This document shows, piece by piece, positions 6,665-62,500 of a stretch of DNA of 64,000 nt. How positions within the stretch are numbered: position 1 is the first letter of the stretch; every line of letters starts with the position of its first letter. Origin of the DNA: Sipunculus nudus (lineage: Eukaryota; Annelida; Sipuncula; Golfingiida; Sipunculidae); the NCBI GenBank assembly GCA_026874595.1, contig CM049317.1:50880118-50944117 (forward strand), written 5' to 3'. The translations under genes and the position numbers were made by a program. The notes under the pieces are model-generated. The model saw only the letters and a list, made by a program, of their open reading frames with translations. It searched no databases and was not told the DNA's origin.

Positions 6665-9600
6665 TCATGAAGAATCTTCTTCTAAAGACTCTTTAAAGTA
6701 AAGAGAGACCTCATTCAGTAAAGCGGCTGAATAGTGTTCGAGTTCGGAAGATTCATTTAATCCATATACAATTTCCGCTTTTATCAAGGCTCTTACGAGT
6801 TCAATGTCCGACAGGGCAACCAATTGTGCCCCAACCTGAACGGGTAATTTATCACAAATAAAGTTCCACATATGTTCTCTCTGGTTAATTGTAGCCGTAC
6901 AGGATTCAACTATATGTACTACTGCATTGAAATATAATTTTCCGCAACGATGACAAAGGAGCTGATGTTGCATATTAAAAGTTTCCAGATTCACAAGTAT
7001 CTGCGCTAAGTACCTGAACCTAGGCAATGAACCAGGTATCTGACTTGATGTTATCCACAGAGCAGACGGCGAGAAGCGACCACCGTGAACCTCGAAAAAA
7101 TTAAATAAGGTCAAATCTCGCGAAACGCTAAATTCATGCATGGTATACTCATAGTTCACGATACTTTCAATTACTTTACATCTCCATTTGTCCCTGTCTG
7201 GAAAGGGTTCACGACCGATTAAGCAGTTATAAATAGTATCAAGCAGTTCATATTTGTTTAACAGTCGACACATGTCGGCGGTAAATCCGTATATGTTAAG
7301 ACTTTTATTCAACAAGAAGTTAATGAAACGGTATATCACGATTTTCTTGCAAGGATTAGAAATGATTAATCTGTACAAGTTACCAAAAAAATTAACTTTG
7401 CTTTATCAATAAAAGATTCTAAACAGGGTATACCTACAATTGATAAAGCAATATTAGTTCTAACATTTGGCTTGAAGTCCTGAGAAATCTTAACACAAAA
7501 CCTGTGAAATCTCTCCAATATCAAGAGTTTAGTCTTATTTAAATTACTCCATAGCTCACAGCCAAATAAAGCACTAGGAATTACAATCTGTTTGTATAGC
7601 AACATACACGAAAGTGGGTTTAAACCCTTTGGCCAAGCACCGATACCAGCCAATGACAGAAAAGATCCTTTCCCCCTATGACACGCGTTAGCAACAGATT
7701 CTTTGTGCGTGAAGTCAGTTAGACTGGTACCCCGCTCTATTATGGCACCGCTGCTCTAGGCCAATCATAGAGACGGGCGTACAACGCCATCTTAAGTACT
7801 CTTGGCAGACTGGTACTAACTCCAGTATATTATATATGATAAAAATAAGCATTTCGTTTGCTCAAAGAAGTTACCAAAAGTTGGCTGTATATTAAATGTG
7901 ACATCAATGATTAGATTAATAGATATTAATAATTAATCACTGCTACGTACAGTGGAAAATCAAAGATTTAGTATATCGTTTTATCTATGCAACCATCGTT
8001 CAATTTTTGTGCAACAACTTATTTTTCAATATTTGAAAACTAGAAATAACTAAAGAAAGTTATTTTATAAGAAATCTTCGAGGATAATCAACCAGGATCA
8101 CGTGAACGTCCATGATAACCGGTATGAGCGTGCATACTGAAGTAGGAACCAGTCTATAGGTAAGTCAGGAGTTGCAACTGGGAGTACTTAAGATGGCGTT
8201 GTACGCCTGTCTCTATGCTTGGCTGAGGGCCATAACAGAGCAGGGTACCAGTCTAGAAGTCAGTCTGCAAATGTACACCAAGATGCACGTGACTCCTCGC
8301 CTGTCGAATAACGTCCTGTCCTAAATACCACTCTCGCTTTGAGTAATATTTATTAAATGTCAAAACACTCTCCCCAGACGTCAGAATAACTGATTTTTTG
8401 GGGTTGAAGTTTAAACGCCATTTTGAACTGTGAGCATAGCATATATTGATCATATTTTGAAGACCCTGTGGAGTAGGCGAGAGTAGCGAAACATCATCAG
8501 CCTGAACTGGTAATTCTTCTAAGAGATCATTTATGTACACCAAAAACCACCAAGGTGATAAGACCCCACCCTACCGTACAGACTGTTTAACATTGAACCA
8601 TCTACTTATATAGCCATCCACCTGAACCGCGCTCTGAACATTGGTATAGGAAGAAACAATAAGCCTCCAAAATTTACCCTTAATTCCTAAATTGAAAATC
8701 TTATATAGAAGGCAATCGTGCCATACTGAATCAAAAGCTCTCTGATTATCGAGGCAGCACAGATATATTTTAGATCCTTTTTCTCTGAAATATGAAATAA
8801 CTTCTTGAACTATAAAAGAAGCATGTAATGAGGACATTTGTTTTTGATGAGCAAATTGTAGACTGTCGGGAACCGGATCTGATTCACCTTTATAAATTTC
8901 AAGGAACGTTCAAGTAATATTTTTTTTCAAAAACTGTATAAATAACAGACAGGAGCGAAATTCCTCTGTGTGCATCCGGTTTTGTACTGTTTCCTTTCCC
9001 TTTTGGTATGGTTACAATAAGGCTGCGCTTCAAACTAACTGGAATTTCTTCCTTGTACAAAATTAAATTGAAAAGGTGACAAAGATGATCCGTCAATGCA
9101 TTCCCAACAAAAAGGAGGTGCTCATTTGTTACACGATCAAGACCGTCGGATTTCCCTCTTTTAAGGGCCTTCACCGCATTGCGCACTTCTAGTGGTGTTA
9201 CAGCGCCATCTAGGAGCTTTTTGCTACAACTAAATGATACCTTTTTCATGTGGCTTACTTGCTCGACCACGTGGTGAAAACAGCCCCCATCAAAATGATT
9301 TTGCTGTTTAGGGGTATATATATTTTCGAAATAGTCAGCCCACCCTTCTGCAGTATCTTGTGGATTATACGAAATATGACCTGGAGAGAAAGAAATACCC
9401 CCTATATGTTTACGTTTAAACTTTCTTCTCTGTTTAACCATTGTCCAAAATCTATTCATATCAAGTTCTGAGTTATCGTGCAGCTCTTGAAAGAGCTCTT
9501 CCTCGACAACTTTATGAATATGCCTCATTGCACGTCTAAATTCACATTTCGCTAGTTTATACGAACGATATTCACTGCACTCCCAGCCACGCGGTCTGCC

Positions 9601-10742
9601 AGCTTCCAACCATTTTATTCGTGCGAATCTCATCACGTCATGTTTAGGTTTAGCCAAGGTTTTCCATTTTGGTTTAAGGTACTTTTTAAATTTTCGGGGC
9701 GGTATAGTGCAGTTCGCACTCACATGTAAACAATTTGTTAAGTTTTTATAATAATCTTCCAAAGTAGCTTCGTTACAATGAGCTTTATCCGGTCTGGACA
9801 GCTTCTTTAGGTTAGCTTGTAGCACACAGGTGTAACTATTTTTTATTTGAACGGGAATTACTTTTTTCCAGTGAAGGGATCCCGTTTGAAGTGGCATGGG
9901 TTGAGGAACACAAATACACATGTTGAAATTAACTGCCACAGGAAGGTGGACAGAATGGTTAAGTTCGTGGTCATCGTAAATTCTAGACTTTAAAATTTGA
10001 CTTTCTATTTGTGGTTCAACCAGAATATGATCGATCAAGGTTCGATTGCCGCTTACACCCGCGTCATAAGTATAAGATGGACCTTCACGCATTGGATGAA
10101 TCATCATAGATATCATTTTGAAGTCTTTTAGAAAAGATTTAAATATACCTGCTCGTCCCTTGCTACAAGATAGCGGACATAAATTACAATTTAGATCTCC
10201 CATGAATATCACATGACCAATAGAACAGTATTCGTTATAAAGTTCATAAAGTAATTCAGTTTTCTCCATATATGTACCTAAATTATGATTGGTGCTTGGT
10301 AAATAAACGTGAAATATACATAGTGAGAAAGAACCACAGTTAACTCGAATACCTACAACAAAATCGTACACTTCATCTATTGGAATAATTGACACGGCAT
10401 GTTTAAGAGACTTTTTCAAAACAGACACACACCACCCTTACCACGTCTATATGGATCTAAAGGGTCCAGGCTACTGTCAGCCACACCATGACAGCTGAAA
10501 CTGTAATTGATAGTTTCGAGAAAGTGTAAGTTGTCTTTAAACAACCAGTGTTCTGCTAACCCAAGAACATAGGTTTTGGGGTCATCGATTGTATACTATT
10601 TCGTTCAGCCATTACTAAAGAGTAGAGTAAATATCTCCGAATTGTCTGGTATAGTTGCAATAGAACATCTGGTTAAATATACAGTGGCCAAAGCTCAAGT
10701 TTCCACCACAGCAAGAAACAATGTAAAACAAATCTTGTCCAT
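6665..10742 (-). pseudogene. LINE ORF2: endonuclease plus reverse transcriptase, broken
   Basis: Reading the minus strand, the apurinic-type endonuclease begins near 10600 (LAEHWLF, then RRGKGGVC after it) and continues with GDLNCNL, TLIDHILVEP and HLPV. The reverse transcriptase starts near 9200 (PLEVRNAVKALKRGKSDGLD) and goes on with HRGISLL, then DNQRAFDSVWHD and ADDVSLLS. The C-terminus has LFGCELW, a conserved block in such elements, and a cysteine/histidine cluster, CHRCGKLYF with a later HIVESC. Damage includes two frameshifts near 8870-8930, a TAG at 8571-8573 where the family usually has Gln (VRQGG), a deletion just before ADD that removes the expected F/YxDD upstream residues, a frameshift near 7370, and the MITE at 7720-8255. 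Without the MITE and one 9-bp duplication the frame is continuous across that site. Confidence 0.85.
7720..8255. mobile_element. MITE with ~80-bp TIRs and 9-bp target duplication
   Basis: The left arm starts TAGACTGGTACC and the right arm ends GGTACCAGTCTA. The inverted similarity runs for about 80 bp, including the CATCTTAAGTACTC/GAGTACTTAAGATG block. Both sides carry GAAGTCAGT (7711-7719 and 8256-8264). A 9-bp duplication with long arms is typical of the Mutator superfamily. It has no coding capacity and interrupts LINE ORF2. Confidence 0.88.
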
Positions 10743-12326
10743 CTAATGAGGGTGGCGAGTGTACCATTTTCTGGTATATGCGCCCTTTGGCCAAAAAGTA
10801 CCAGACTCTATCTGATCACAAGACGTGTCCCAAACTCTGACCTTGGCACAGACATATCCAGGGATTCTACCAGGATACATACGCAAATCTATCAACTCTA
10901 CATTTCTCCTTTTGATGTAAGATATCAAATCATCATATGAAACACAGTTTTCTATTTTACCGACATAATAGTCCACTATATGTCTGTCTCGGTCTCCGCT
11001 CCGTCTCAGCGAGACACCAGTGAACGAGCCTTCTATTATATCAGTATTCCTATTGTTATACGTGCGTGTGTGGTAAGTGTCATCCTTGTTTAGAGGTGCC
11101 CGTGAAGTTGCCATCCCATTCTGCGCGGTATCAGATGAATTCAAATGACTGTTTGACTGCTGCACACTCGATCTAGTATCAGACTGCCGTCCTGATATCT
11201 GGCGTCCATGTTGAAGGGCATCCGCATACGGTCTGCTTTCTGGTGTGAAAAAGCGTGATTCTATTTCCGCAAGTTTTGCACGCAAAAATTTCAGTGATGT
11301 TATTGCGGATTCTGCCTTATGGGCACAGTCTTGGATGTCATTTTCTGCAGACCGGAGCCTTCCATAAGACAATCTGATGTCATTTCCAATCTTCAAACGA
11401 TCAGTTACAGCCTCATTTGTCATTTCTACTGCACGTCTCTTCACATTATTGATTAAACTGGAATGTTTTGCTAAATCATCCTTTACATCTCTCACAGAAA
11501 TTTCGAAGGTAGAGCGCATCATGCCAAGTTCATCAAAGCACATTTTAATATCATTTTTCATGTCTACCATCTCTACTCTTAACTGAATCAATTCAACTGA
11601 TTGTTTAGCAACGTCATCCTTCACGTCATTCAAGCTTTGAATAGAAAAACGTAAGCCCTCAATTTCTTCATTACATCGACTTATTTCACCATTTTTATCT
11701 GTGATTTCTTGTTTTAATTCAGACAAAGTATCAGAGAACCACTGTTTAATATTTGCACACTCTGACTGAATTTCTTCCAGTTTCACAGCGTGAAGAGCAA
11801 CTGTATCAGCCAGGCTGCTACTTCTGTCAAAAGGAACACGAGGGTGATCAGAGGGTTTACCGCAGGTTTCAATTATAACTGTACCACTAGATTTGCTTGT
11901 AGTGAAAATACTGGACAGCTCTTCTGCTGGAGCATCACAGATGAATGATGCCAGTATGTAGCAGTCTTTGGCCAGTTTTTCACCGAGACTTTGTCCCATT
12001 TGAGATTTTGGCCGTTGCCGTTTAATCAGAGACCCTCCAGGAAAGTTTGGTTTCATTTTAGCTTTTTCATAAAGTTCAAATCTGATGTTCTCTAACAACG
12101 AAACATTGTTTTGTGAGTACGTAAGGACTTTGTGAACCACAGCATCTTTTGGATCTGTGTTGATATCATCTAGAATTTTATCAATAATGTCCGAGACTGG
12201 CCTCTGTAAATATTCATCGGTGAAGTCGCCAACATCACACGATTCACTATTCAACATTTGCATGAGCGACCCCTCATTCAACAGTTCATGTGATTGCGCA
12301 ATAACGTTAACCACGGAGGTATTCAT
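10743..12326 (-). CDS. LINE ORF1 protein, 527 aa, intact
   Basis: An open frame ending at TAG, directly followed by the ATG of ORF2. The first 190 residues are acidic and unremarkable. About residues 190-360 are rich in heptad-like Leu, Ile and charged residues (for example ELKQEITDKNGEISRCNEE), which suggests a coiled coil for oligomerisation. A Ser/Asn/Gln-rich linker follows (about 365-420). The last 100 residues (GVSLRR, VDYYVGKIENCVSYDDLISY, FWPKGAYTRKWY) resemble the RRM-like RNA-binding tail of ORF1 proteins in invertebrate LINEs. Such proteins coat the element RNA. The start at 12326 is the first Met of the frame. It is an element gene, not a host gene. Confidence 0.8.
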   Translation of the reverse strand: MNTSVVNVIAQSHELLNEGSLMQMLNSESCDVGDFTDEYLQRPVSDIIDKILDDINTDPKDAVVHKVLTYSQNNVSLLENIRFELYEKAKMKPNFPGGSLIKRQRPKSQMGQSLGEKLAKDCYILASFICDAPAEELSSIFTTSKSSGTVIIETCGKPSDHPRVPFDRSSSLADTVALHAVKLEEIQSECANIKQWFSDTLSELKQEITDKNGEISRCNEEIEGLRFSIQSLNDVKDDVAKQSVELIQLRVEMVDMKNDIKMCFDELGMMRSTFEISVRDVKDDLAKHSSLINNVKRRAVEMTNEAVTDRLKIGNDIRLSYGRLRSAENDIQDCAHKAESAITSLKFLRAKLAEIESRFFTPESRPYADALQHGRQISGRQSDTRSSVQQSNSHLNSSDTAQNGMATSRAPLNKDDTYHTRTYNNRNTDIIEGSFTGVSLRRSGDRDRHIVDYYVGKIENCVSYDDLISYIKRRNVELIDLRMYPGRIPGYVCAKVRVWDTSCDQIESGTFWPKGAYTRKWYTRHPH

Positions 12327-12601
12327 GTTGATCTCACTGCCCAGCGGGCAAAAATGGCTTTTACAAACGTGTGTCCAGGGAAAATCAGCCAGGCGTGACT
12401 TAGTATCTGATTAATGCAAACAATTTTCAGAGAATGAACGTATAATATTTGTCCGACACTCACCTTAATTCAGTTATTTGTTACTTGGAAGGCACAGTAG
12501 CTGTATGCCACGTTTTGAGGAAAAGGGTGGCTTATTTCTGAAGAAAATCATGATAATTTCTCCCCACCGCCCCTTATATCAAAGGCAATTTGATGCATAT
12601 T

Positions 12602-23489: not shown

Positions 23490-24135
23490 AAAATTTTGCA
23501 GGTTTATACATCTTGGATAGCTTTCTGGATTTTGTGGTAGGTGGCGCCACCTACATTTATGTTTACGCTGCAGACATCCAAGCTCATATCTCGGGAACCG
23601 TTTGACCGATTGGGCAAATATTTTTCATGTGTATAGATCTCACATAGCTCTTTATCATACGCAAAACTGGTGGCGCCACCTGCAACCATTTTTGCACAGG
23701 GTCCGTCTGTTTGTCTGTTGTGGGGTAAAATCACTCATATCTCTGCACTGGTTTAACTTATCTGCCTAAAATTTTGCAATTTAATACATCTTGGATAGCT
23801 TTCTTGATTTTATGACAGGTGGCGCCACTTACATTCACATATACGCTGCAGACCTCCAAGCTCATATCTCGGGAACCGTTTGGCCGATTGGGCCAAAATT
23901 TTGCATGTGTATAGATCTCACATAGCTCTTTATCATAAGCAAAACTGGTGGCGCCACCTGCAACAATTTTTGCACAGGGTCTGTCTGTTTGTCTGCCGTG
24001 GGATAAAATCACTCATATCTCAGCAGTGGTTTGACTTTTTTTCATTTGTATACAGCCTTGATAGCTTTCTGGATTTTGTGGTAGGTGGCACAGCCTACAT
24101 ACACATTTCGGCTGCAGACATCCATGCTAATATGC
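23490..24135. repeat. 281-bp tandem repeat, about 2.3 copies
   Basis: Units start TACATCTTGGATAGCTTTCT at 23507 and 23788, with a shorter, diverged third at 24051. Each full unit holds two palindromic GGTGGCGCCACC-type sites, CATATCTCGGGAACCGTTTG, and TTTTTGCACAGGGT. The minus strand of both full units keeps an open frame of about 76-84 codons with near-identical peptides. I do not recognise the peptide. Confidence 0.85.
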
Positions 24136-29158: not shown

Positions 29159-29853
29159 TGTTACGGGGTGACATAAAAGCGGACCGAACTGTCTCGCTAG
29201 TGAATCTTGCTTTACAAGCGAAGCAGTTGGAACGCCAGACATGTGCGCCACCGACATGGGTTTGAATCCCGGATCGGCCCAGTATTTTCCCCTGAGCAAT
29301 TTGTCTTCGTAGCAGATGGGGGCTCGTCCAAAAAAAGTCCAAAACGTGTGCCTGGGGAATGTTGGTTTGAAGTGATTAGAAAATTACCGCCACCAAGTTC
29401 ACTAAAGTGTGACTCCTGGGATAGTCTTGTACTGATAGCAGAACGCTCTTATGAGGGGGTGTGTATCGGGGTGACATAAAAGCGGACCAAACTGTCTTGC
29501 TGGTGAAGCTTGCTTTTCTAGCGAAGTTGGAACGCCGGACTTGTGCGCCACCGACATAGGTTCGAATCCCGGATCGGCCCAGTATTTTCCCCTGAGCAAT
29601 TTATGTTCGTAACAAATGGGGGCTCGTCCAAAGTGACGGCAAACTTTGTGGCCCAGGGAATGGTGGTTTGAAGTGACTGAGTAATTACCGCCACCTAGCT
29701 CACCAAAGTGTGACTCCTTGGACAGTTAATCTTGTTCTGAGAGCAGAACGCTCTTAAGAGGGGGTGTGTTACGTGGTGTCATAAAAGCGGACCGAACTGT
29801 CTCGCTAATGAAGCTTGCTTTTATTTTCCCCTGAATAATTTGTCTTCGTAACA
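29159..29853 (+). mobile_element. TRIM-like miniature LTR retrotransposon in tandem form
   Basis: Three short LTRs (29159-29314, 29462-29614, 29767-29853) alternate with two internal segments of about 147-152 bp. LTRs begin TGTTACG or TGTATCG and end CGTAACA or CGTAGCA. Two bases after LTRs 1 and 2 comes TGGGGGCTCGTCC (29317-29329, 29617-29629), the classical primer binding site for tRNA-Pro. Just before LTRs 2 and 3 are purine tracts ATGAGGGGG and AAGAGGGGG. The internal segments have no ORF, so replication would depend on another element's proteins. LTR 2 also carries TAGCGAAGTTGG and GGTTCGAATCC, matching tRNA A and B boxes at tRNA-like spacing. LTR 3 has lost that middle part. No target duplication is seen. 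Confidence 0.75.
29519..29569 (+). promoter_or_regulatory. tRNA-like Pol III A and B boxes within the LTR
   Basis: A-box-like TAGCGAAGTTGG (29519-29530) and B box GGTTCGAATCC (29559-29569) sit in LTR 2 with CGCCGGACTTGTG between, as in a tRNA body. LTR 1 has a diverged version. Function is inferred. Confidence 0.5.
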
Positions 29854-59019: not shown

Positions 59020-59512
59020 GTGATGTGGCCAAGTCCACACCATCCGAGTCTGAGATTATGTCTGAGTCTAAGCCAGATTTCGAGATTTCGAGTCCTTGAA
59101 ATTCTACTCGATTTCCGCCTTTTTCGAGACTGAGTCCGAACCACTTAGAGCGCGAGGCCGAGACCAAGTAAATCTTCTTATTAAAAGAAATCTTAAGTCC
59201 AAGTCCGAGTCTATTACAAATATCTTTATCAAAAGAAAACTTATGTCCAATTCCGAAGCCAATGCAAATCTCCTTATAAAAAAAATCTTAGGTGCAAGGC
59301 CAAGGCCAATGCAGGTTTCCTTATCAAAGGAAATCTTAAGTCCAAGTCCAAGACCAATGCAAATCTCCTTATCAAAAGAAATCTCAAGTCCAAGTCCGAG
59401 GCCAATGCAAGTCTCCTTATCAAAAGAAATCTCAAGTCCAAGTCCGAGCCCAATGCAAATCTTATCAAACGAACTTTTAAGTCCGATACTGGACTCGAGT
59501 CACACATCTCTA
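59020..59512. repeat. GACTCGAGTC-type repeat, copy 2, with 48-bp minisatellite
   Basis: Begins with GATGTGG and AAGTCCACACC and ends GGACTCGAGTCACACATCTC. Between about 59170 and 59470 a 48-bp unit (core CTTATCAAAAGAAATCTC and AAGTCCAAGTCCGAGGCC) repeats about six times. As 48 is a multiple of 3, a 182-codon frame stays open, but it is not a gene. Confidence 0.8.
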
Positions 59513-62500
59513 GTTATTTCTATTGGAAATTTATTGTCATTGGATAACATTTTTTTCAAGGTATCGGAATTCACAAAGTTAATGACATCATTGCATATTG
59601 AGCTGGAGCTAATACTGACTCTCAGGTTGATTCCAAGAGAATAAACTTTAGAAAATAAAAAAAAAGACTCTGCAAAATGTCCTAATGAGACTTTTATTAT
59701 GCATTTCAAATATCAGCAACATCAAGCACATTCAGGATAAATCTTCATCGAATGAATAAAGAGACAGTTGTCACTATAAATTAATCTTCTTGGCATTAAC
59801 CTGCATTTAATTTTCACTAGCACATTTTGATGGTTGTTCGTTGTCAGTATCGCTATGTTTTCATATCAAGCTAATACAATAAGCATAATTGTTTGTTAGT
59901 GCCGTCAGCTTATGAGGATTTAAATTGTTTTATGTAATCAATTTTGTAAGAATAACCTTGCGTTGTCACATTCTTTCATTATGGCTCTAACAAGACATTG
60001 ATGCTCAATACCAAGTCAGATAAGGATATATATATATGTGTGTGTGTGTGTGTGTAAATGTTAAACATAATATATATTATATATCATATTTATGATATCT
60101 TATATATAATATATAATGTATATAAAATACATGTGCCTGTACTCATTAACTCTCTTTGATCATTGGGGATCATTGAACTGGGAAGTGATGTCGGAAATTT
60201 AATATCGTATCATTGTTCTAAGTACCATATCGTGTCGCAGTTGTAAGTATCGTATCGTATCGCAGTTTTAAGTACCATATTTGATCATCGTATGATCGTG
60301 AAATAGTATCAACGTGTTTGCCGGCTGTAACAGCAGTTAAGGAGTAAATGGTCATATCAGCAGTCCGACATCTCTTCATTCCTGCTTTGGAACCCTGTAG
60401 CTTCCACAAAATGTTCTACACAAGCAAATTAAGGAATGTAAGAAATTATATTTGTTCTAAAGTGTTATACTTAACTTTAAAACTTTTAGTTACAATCGAT
60501 AAGAAAGAAGTGTCTGGATATGACTTTCCCTACCGTCAAAATAATATACGTAACCACAAGAACCGTTCTCAGAGGGTTATGTGAGGAATATAATTGAGGC
60601 TAAGGTTTTTACAAAAATAGAGTATGAATATAAGAAGAAAATGAGTGCAATAAATAGGTTTCATTCTCGCCCTCAATGACACAGGTCAAAACTTAAAAGA
60701 AGTTATGTCTGGTTTATAGAGAGGGGTCTGTGCGAAGCTAACACGGACTTGTCTTTTGCAAATGATAAACTTCTGCAACCGACGAATATTTTTATTGAAT
60801 CATATTTATTTAAAGTTTACAAAATGGCAGACCTGCCACTGCCGTTTCTTTAATGCTTATTGAAGACTTAGTTAAGTCCTTTTCTTGAAAGCAAAAGGTC
60901 ATAACTTATAAAGTAATGGGAAAGATGTCAACACCTAATGGGCGACTAAAACATTTCTGTTTGACTAATGCATTTAACCCTTTGGAGTAGCTCTTTCATG
61001 TTTTATAAACAACATAACAAAAACAGAATTATAATATATTCGTAGAACTAAAGTCAAACAGTTATTACAGAATAACAAAAACTTCAGGTGCATTGAATTA
61101 AATAAATTTCACGTAATGATGTTAAAATGATTGGTAAAACAGTCACATGGATTGAACGACCAGTTAAAATAGCTAATGCGAGGCACTCTACATGGCTCGG
61201 CTGACGGTGTTCTGTAGTTTACAAAGTATTTACTAAAGTTCTAGTGTTTTTTTTTTTATAAAAGGAAACACAAATGAAATGCTTTCAATGGAACCTCGTC
61301 AACAGTGCTGTATTCAAGGCCGTAGTACTCCAAGTGAATTACTTTAGTGCCAGTGAATTACTTCAGAAGTTACCCTTCCATCAACGTGATTAATAGCGTG
61401 AATACAAGTAAATTGCTGAAAAAGAAGAAATCATTCGTTAAATATGTATCAACATTTATGAAAAGCAAGAGATTTGGGACCGTAAAGGTCCTTAATTTCG
61501 GCTCCGCGATCGCCAGTTCCTCCAACTGGCAGCCATACTAAAGGATGGACGGGAAGACGGGCGGACAAGGCGATCACTATAGGGCTCCGATTTTAAGCGG
61601 CGCCCTAATGAGCAATAGTATTACAAATCGTGTCTTAGTTATGTAGGTATAATTTGTACACTGAAGCACTGTAAGATTTCAGATTAATTCAAGTTACACC
61701 CCCGACACACAAACACTACAATCTTAATGAGAAATTTACTTTACATATACGTTCTGCATTGAGGTATGGTAGTACATACGTATATTGGCGTATCGGTGAA
61801 ATATGTTTGATGTTTGCAAGAGCGTATTTTCTTTTTGTTCAAAACGTTATGTCCCAAAAATTATTGCCCATTAAATGGAATATGAAATATTTAGAAATAC
61901 TAGATAAATCCTCCATGGTATATTGATGTTATAATACTAGTATTTTTGATATTATTAACAAAGTAACATTCATCTGTATTTCATATCTATCCTGTAAACC
62001 TACAGTGAATCCTGCATCACAGTCAACAGATGATGGTTAACAGCAGTGATATGGAAGCAGTAAATTACAAAAGTGAAGCGGGTGACTCTTCCTACCCTTT
62101 TCTGCTCCGCCAGATACTAAAGGAATGGTGCTATTTTGAATTCTCCGTGGTAATTTGATAAATCACCAAAGATAACGTGACCCTAAAACAAACACTTTCA
62201 TCTTTACTTTCCTTAGAACTGAATAGATTAGGGTAAGATAACCACATTTGAAACAGACAGAGAAGCAATGATATTTTCATTATCTCAAGATCACAGATCT
62301 TCTCCAGTGATTTCCAATTAAATGTTTTGCTAAGAATATCACAACGTGATCATCTTCATGTTATTTACGCAACGATCTCCGATAGAATATAAAGGCGCGT
62401 GTTCTATATGGAAGCCAAAACAATAAGAAAAAAATGCAAATTACGCGACTTTTGATCGCCCACTAATCATTATGTACATAATGTACAAAGTTGAAAACGG

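Follow-up and report, generated by a model that had tools for sequence, protein, structure and literature searches.

At positions 29159–29853 of a 64,000-nucleotide stretch of the Sipunculus nudus genome (the window), short LTRs alternate with internal segments, tRNA-Pro-type primer sites and purine tracts lie at the junctions, and one LTR has the look of a tRNA gene. The locus raises the question of whether such an array is a miniature LTR retrotransposon of the TRIM type or a repeat that imitates one, and of what a tRNA-like sequence could be doing within its LTR.

Architecture of the window array and its genome-wide family

The original prediction described three LTRs alternating with two internal segments that lack ORFs. 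These borders were confirmed (Table 1), and no stop-to-stop ORF of at least 130 aa overlapped the window element, where the longest ORF with an ATG, GTG or TTG start was 90 aa. The 13-nt tRNA-Pro-type primer binding site (PBS) was found, as anticipated, two bases past LTR1 and LTR2; these are the only places in the window that match TGGGGGCTCGTCC with up to one mismatch, both matches are exact, and 100 shuffles gave none. No match to an 18-nt form of the site was found in the window with three mismatches or fewer. The 13-nt motif would complement the 3′ end of tRNA-Pro. Purine tracts had been placed before LTRs 2 and 3, and their 3′ ends do adjoin these LTRs, at 29461 and 29766. LTR3 is short owing to a deletion of its central part that removed both promoter boxes. 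The window copy has no target duplication (flanks aatc and acct).

Table 1. Features of the array, in positions of the window
Feature	Position	Strand	Remarks
LTR1	29159..29314	+	156 bp, TG...CA; box A decayed, box B with 1 mismatch
Internal segment 1 (INT1)	29315..29461	+	147 bp, no long ORF; purine tract at its end
Primer binding site 1	29317..29329	+	tRNA-Pro type, TGGGGGCTCGTCC, exact
LTR2	29462..29614	+	153 bp
tRNA-type box A, LTR2	29519..29530	+	TAGCGAAGTTGG, 0 mismatches
tRNA-type box B, LTR2	29559..29569	+	GGTTCGAATCC, 0 mismatches
TTTT, LTR2	29585..29588	+	15 nt 3′ of box B; possible weak Pol III terminator (putative role)
Internal segment 2 (INT2)	29615..29766	+	152 bp; 3′ end is AAGAGGGGGTG
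Primer binding site 2	29617..29629	+	TGGGGGCTCGTCC, exact
LTR3	29767..29853	+	87 bp; central part deleted, boxes A and B gone

Other repeats occur elsewhere in the window. Two tandem copies of a 278-bp unit, 90% matching, occupy 23490–24037, and a 48-bp tandem repeat (59158–59484) lies within 59072–59644, where each strand has a stop-to-stop ORF (190 and 131 aa). Two long ORFs on the minus strand at 8899–12410 resemble a non-LTR retrotransposon; their endonuclease match fell just under the Pfam cut-off, and the upstream ORF gave only a sub-threshold match of coiled-coil type.

The genome (1.43 Gb, 153 contigs) was searched for further copies. A 456-bp query returned 53 matches, from the best 40 of 3574 candidates, and LTR2 returned 40, from the best 40 of 3123; combined, the two sets fall on every one of contigs C1–C17. 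Annotation of 70 loci yielded 72 groups, comprising 48 scorable insertions, 22 excluded groups (12 lacked TG/CA ends, 7 had truncated LTRs and 3 had no terminal LTR; the duplicate L041 is one of these 22) and two that were dropped as duplicates (L050 and L064). The single, tandem and solo forms sought were all recovered at dispersed sites: in this sample, which consists of the best matches to the window rather than random copies and so gives fractions that are not valid for the whole family, there were 33 LTR–internal–LTR insertions, 7 solo LTRs, 6 two-unit arrays and 2 longer ones. Exact 4-bp target duplications flanked 26 of the 48 insertions, as compared with a shuffle mean of 2.0, and were absent from the other 22. 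They were present at 17/33 single, 4/8 multimeric and 5/7 solo insertions; seven of the 26 consist of A/T only, where chance matches are easier. The duplications had been expected to measure 5 bp, a length found at none of the 48 insertions.

The LTR/internal borders are conserved across the copies, and the exact 24-mer spanning the LTR–PBS junction occurs at 103 genomic places (control 0). Over 13 nt, the PBS is exact in 34 of 57 internal segments, with one mismatch in 18 and two in 5; over 18 nt, it is exact in three of the 57. Beside the unit of ~460 bp there is a second form of ~430 bp with a shorter internal segment, and 64 internal segments fall into 43 long (141–156 bp) and 21 short ones (110–134 bp, mostly 118). 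LTR pairs from different loci (7928) had a mean identity of 0.870, and pairs from the same locus (73) one of 0.891. No match was obtained when viral contigs and prokaryote genomes were scanned with exact patterns. As to the assembly itself, long open COX1-family frames were seen on C60, C61, C62, C66, C72, C74, C75, C89 and C123, all outside C1–C17 (L079, L080); C123, read over its first 20 kb, looks bacterial, and genomes of symbionts or contaminants seem to be part of the assembly.

We conclude that the family is a TRIM and not a satellite, because many of its insertions carry 4-bp duplications and they occur as dispersed solo, single and tandem forms, although the window copy itself has no duplication. 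The reading of the window array as a TRIM in multimeric form stands on its structure together with these family-level duplications. The original prediction had staked this reading on target duplications, conserved borders and a unit other than a satellite, and at the level of the family all three were borne out.

The arrays differ in how alike their units are. Among nine within-array pairs of internal segments, identity ranged from 0.823 in the window to 1.00 in L017; L042, L062 and L054 reached 0.975–0.992, and the remaining four pairs were 0.83–0.94 alike. The window value places INT1 and INT2 at the 28th percentile of between-locus pairs, the level of strangers. Because identities are high within some arrays and stranger-level in the window, some arrays appear to be recent in-place duplications and the window array does not. 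The low identity of INT1 and INT2 would fit an array made during reverse transcription, by a switch of template from one element RNA to another, as opposed to DNA recombination after insertion, and a paper on cereals proposes template switching as a source of LTR-sharing elements (PMC1950507). However, four of the nine pairs (L017, L042, L062 and L054) are 97.5–100% alike, pointing to in-place duplication there, and the missing duplication at the window copy fits recombination between two elements. An origin of the window array by template switching is, in our judgement, doubtful.

tRNA-like promoter boxes in the LTR

LTR2 had been predicted to contain tRNA A and B boxes at proper spacing, and this was borne out. 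Its box pair is the sole pair without mismatches in the window on either strand. None of 5000 dinucleotide shuffles of LTR2 had fewer than three mismatches, and among 2554 overlapping 153-mers from both strands of the window two had none and the next best had three. Elsewhere in the array, the best pair in LTR1 has three mismatches, and LTR3 has no pair. Copies and controls were scored with identical box patterns. Across 127 LTR copies, both boxes were perfect in 51, with one mismatch in 47, two in 19, and a worse or no match in 10, such that 98/127 deviate by at most one. Box A and box B start 43 nt apart in 80 of the 127 copies, a distance much like that in tRNA genes; in 27 copies, the best match takes a second A-box-like stretch, 61 nt 5′ of box B.

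The resemblance to a tRNA gene extends to the boxes and the T stem, which keeps 4/5 pairs in the majority sequence; the other stems are mostly lost (D 1/4, anticodon 2/5, acceptor 3/7). Scoring with a tRNA finder, proposed as a check, gave a negative result: ARAGORN predicted no tRNA in the window. The Rfam tRNA model (RF00005) likewise had no match in the window or in the 20 of 70 element loci scanned, nor was a 5S rRNA match reported in these sequences. With the majority of its tRNA stems gone and no tRNA predicted, the LTR, as judged from its sequence, carries tRNA-like promoter boxes (boxes and T stem only) and is not a tRNA gene. Two weak Rfam snoRNA matches near LTR1 (E up to 10) lay far under the cut-offs and were taken as chance, as were Rfam matches at E up to 10 in the 20 loci, mainly in AT repeats. 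A tandem tRNA array was encountered separately, at C9:40605435–40699894 (L081), where 46 tRNA matches are listed, 44 with equal score and mostly ~1.67 kb apart; the one unit that was read contains tRNA-Lys(TTT) and tRNA-Met(CAT).

A TTTT follows box B in 96/127 copies, and should end many Pol III transcripts within the 5′ LTR. The string formed by box B and this TTTT recurs exactly at 106 genomic places (control 0). Another TTTT lies just 5′ of box A in 99/127 copies, and TTTT occurs in 18 of 64 internal segments against 38% expected, a weak avoidance. Mean conservation was 0.936 in the box columns and 0.915 elsewhere in the LTR; extra conservation of the boxes is not supported, because 7% of circular shifts do equally well.

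These observations bear on the alternative that survives best, that of an ordinary Pol II-driven TRIM in which the tRNA-like stretch is an inert SINE or tRNA relic inserted into an ancestral LTR. The loss of most stems, the lack of significant extra conservation in the A/B columns and the position of TTTT 3′ of box B all favour a relic. However, most copies keep both boxes with no more than one mismatch in all, AATAAA is found in just 2/127 LTRs and TATAA in 5/127, and the boxes recur across other Helenus families in the available text of PMC10886601. We regard a Pol II-driven element as unlikely, if still worth serious consideration. A satellite or tandem repeat merely resembling an LTR element would suit the ~300-bp tandem units of the window and several other arrays, but is very improbable given the many single and solo insertions and the matches across 17 contigs, and we reject it because dispersed single copies carry 4-bp duplications. 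The perfect boxes of LTR2 might also evoke a cluster of tRNA genes or an expanded tRNA gene family; this has a negligible probability and is rejected on the ARAGORN result for the window and the Rfam results for the window and the 20 loci scanned.

A candidate partner family and an LTR-leader chimera

The exact 18-nt PBS occurs at 529 genomic places (control 0). Six of these were read: four (L088, L090, L091 and L093) share a leader, with a common spacer 5′ of the PBS and related sequence 3′ of it, one is a chimera (L092) and one is different (L089). A gag-like frame starting MADFKPETF, to which Pfam gave no name, stays open throughout in L088 and L093, whereas L090 and L091 have it in broken form. 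In a search with the gag start, the best 150 of 2215 candidates were scored and all had at least 87% identity; many of the frames among the matches listed are only ~70 aa long, and the longest is 406 aa. The 28-mer leader junction of this family was found at 119 genomic places (control 0), and 12 of the 100 junctions listed have a gag match within ~200 nt downstream, as compared by eye with the best 150 gag matches. About 2 kb beyond the gag match at C3:43911238 lies an integrase zinc-binding (H2C2) domain (PF17921, E 2.6e-23), in a piece that is itself stop-free, has stops in frame upstream and is tied to the family by its position near that match. Domains of the PF17921 type are not unique to Gypsy.

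This LTR family, which shares the 18-nt primer site and bears a gag-like frame, is a candidate partner of the element, and we infer that it is of Gypsy type because of the integrase domain and the 4-bp duplications. The existence of a second LTR family with a tRNA-Pro PBS, beside the solo LTR at L056, counts against the assignment. That second family, at L056 1655–1900 on the minus strand, is a high-copy LTR family with an exact 18-nt tRNA-Pro-type PBS (best 40 of 3443 candidates scored), and the solo LTR of the Helenus-type element is oppositely oriented and sits immediately within it. At an L056-type LTR pair on C10 (L085–L087), no PBS was found beside either LTR, and the 1.5 kb read between them had no long ORF.

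The chimera, at C1:9442197–9442380, begins as a family LTR that has 89% identity to LTR1 and changed final bases, and runs into the partner's spacer, the PBS and the next 7 nt, as in L088 and L093. The match outside the PBS is short: in L088 and L093, 14 nt directly adjoin the PBS, and L090 and L091 match over fewer. A 35-nt pattern across the junction has two exact genomic places (C1:9442334 and C11:46513324; control 0), the second being known from its matched 35 nt alone. The simplest reading is recombination between both RNAs during reverse transcription, and an origin at the DNA level is also conceivable. The chimera and the second junction fit trans-mobilization of the element by the putative partner family.

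Placement among Helenus elements and a proposed life cycle

In the literature collection searched, Kojima 2024 (PMC10886601) is the only paper since 2023 listed for Helenus in combination with retrotransposons and tRNA. This paper defines Helenus as TRIMs with a tRNA-like LTR and reports them from six phyla of animals. Pteriomorph bivalves account for 51 families, and all the mollusc families are from Pteriomorphia. Units range from 311 to 1263 bp, the LTRs keep boxes A and B and are unlikely to form a functional tRNA, duplications in animals are of 4 bp, tRNA-Pro is among the bivalve primers, and the zebrafish family LTR-11_DR forms tandem arrays. Gypsy partners were inferred from PBS similarity to Gypsy in animals. 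The tRNA-type counterpart in an animal, which the original prediction called a notable chimera, had thus already been published.

The family described here agrees with Helenus in several structural features. It has two short LTRs and a short, non-coding internal segment, its unit of ~460 bp falls inside the Helenus range, and it has a PBS and a polypurine tract (PPT), tRNA-Pro being the presumed complement of the PBS. The A/B boxes are carried by LTR2 and by most copies, but not by LTR1 and LTR3 of the window, just as the 4-bp duplications belong to the family and not to the window copy; tandem arrays are common to both. Where Kojima (PMC10886601) reports PBS similarity to Gypsy in animals, the evidence here also includes an LTR-leader chimera. 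The placement is by structure, the named Helenus families having been compared by description rather than by sequence. We conclude that the window element is a real, well-formed member of the already described Helenus kind.

Two other groups were compared, each from the accessible part of its source. Cassandra of plants is a TRIM with a 5S rRNA-derived Pol III promoter in its LTR and with LTR/internal tandem arrays (PMC7215508, PMC10886601). The present family resembles it in its tandem arrays and in a presumed Pol III-type promoter in the LTR (PMC7215508); in Cassandra and Ajax, however, the LTR is 5S rRNA-derived, whereas here it is tRNA-like, with no 5S match reported in the window or the 20 loci scanned. 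The bivalve biv-TRIM (Satovic 2019) also has solo and tandem forms, with terminal repeats of 202–218 bp, an inner domain of 77–80 bp, no unambiguous PBS in the text available and a conserved segment TGATCCCAAAGGAC (PMC6934838). In contrast, the LTR here measures 156 bp and the internal segment 147–152 bp, a PBS is present, and TGATCCCAAAGGAC is absent from the window element at up to two mismatches. Identity with biv-TRIM was rejected on these sizes, the PBS and the missing segment.

We consider it about 80% probable that the element, at ~460 bp, is a non-autonomous LTR retrotransposon and a TRIM of the Helenus type, with a cycle based on Pol III and a helper. The observations from which this cycle starts are the LTR/PBS/PPT structure, the 4-bp duplications, the dispersal, the solo and tandem forms and the A/B boxes across copies; on the partner side, they are a same-PBS family that has a gag-like ORF and, close to one of its gag copies, an integrase domain, together with one chimera that was read and a second junction string. 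The A and B boxes of the 5′ LTR would recruit Pol III, which would read through the weak TTTT into the internal segment and the 3′ LTR. The element RNA would then enter the particles of a Gypsy-type element acting as putative helper, where tRNA-Pro would prime at the PBS and the PPT would prime the second strand. Insertion by the partner integrase would give the 4-bp duplication, and subsequent LTR–LTR recombination may produce solo LTRs and tandem arrays.

A more specific version, a retroelement with two Pol III products, is put forward only tentatively. The TTTT after box B would end most transcripts as a tRNA-like RNA with a predicted length of ~85–90 nt, and leaky read-through would yield the full-length RNA, in which R would begin where Pol III starts and extend as far as the 3′ LTR copy of this TTTT. 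This RNA would be packaged with a Gypsy-type helper and might sometimes recombine with it at the LTR/PBS junction.

The most useful additions made here are the family proposed as partner and the chimera of LTR and leader, for the latter of which we claim no priority. tRNA-like LTRs of this type can be mistaken for tRNA genes. One genome here combines a TRIM with a tRNA-like promoter, present in solo and tandem forms as well, with a likely helper family and a natural LTR–helper junction. How such a promoter serves a retrovirus-like cycle, and which element mobilizes the TRIM, are thus two questions that could be tested in a single species.
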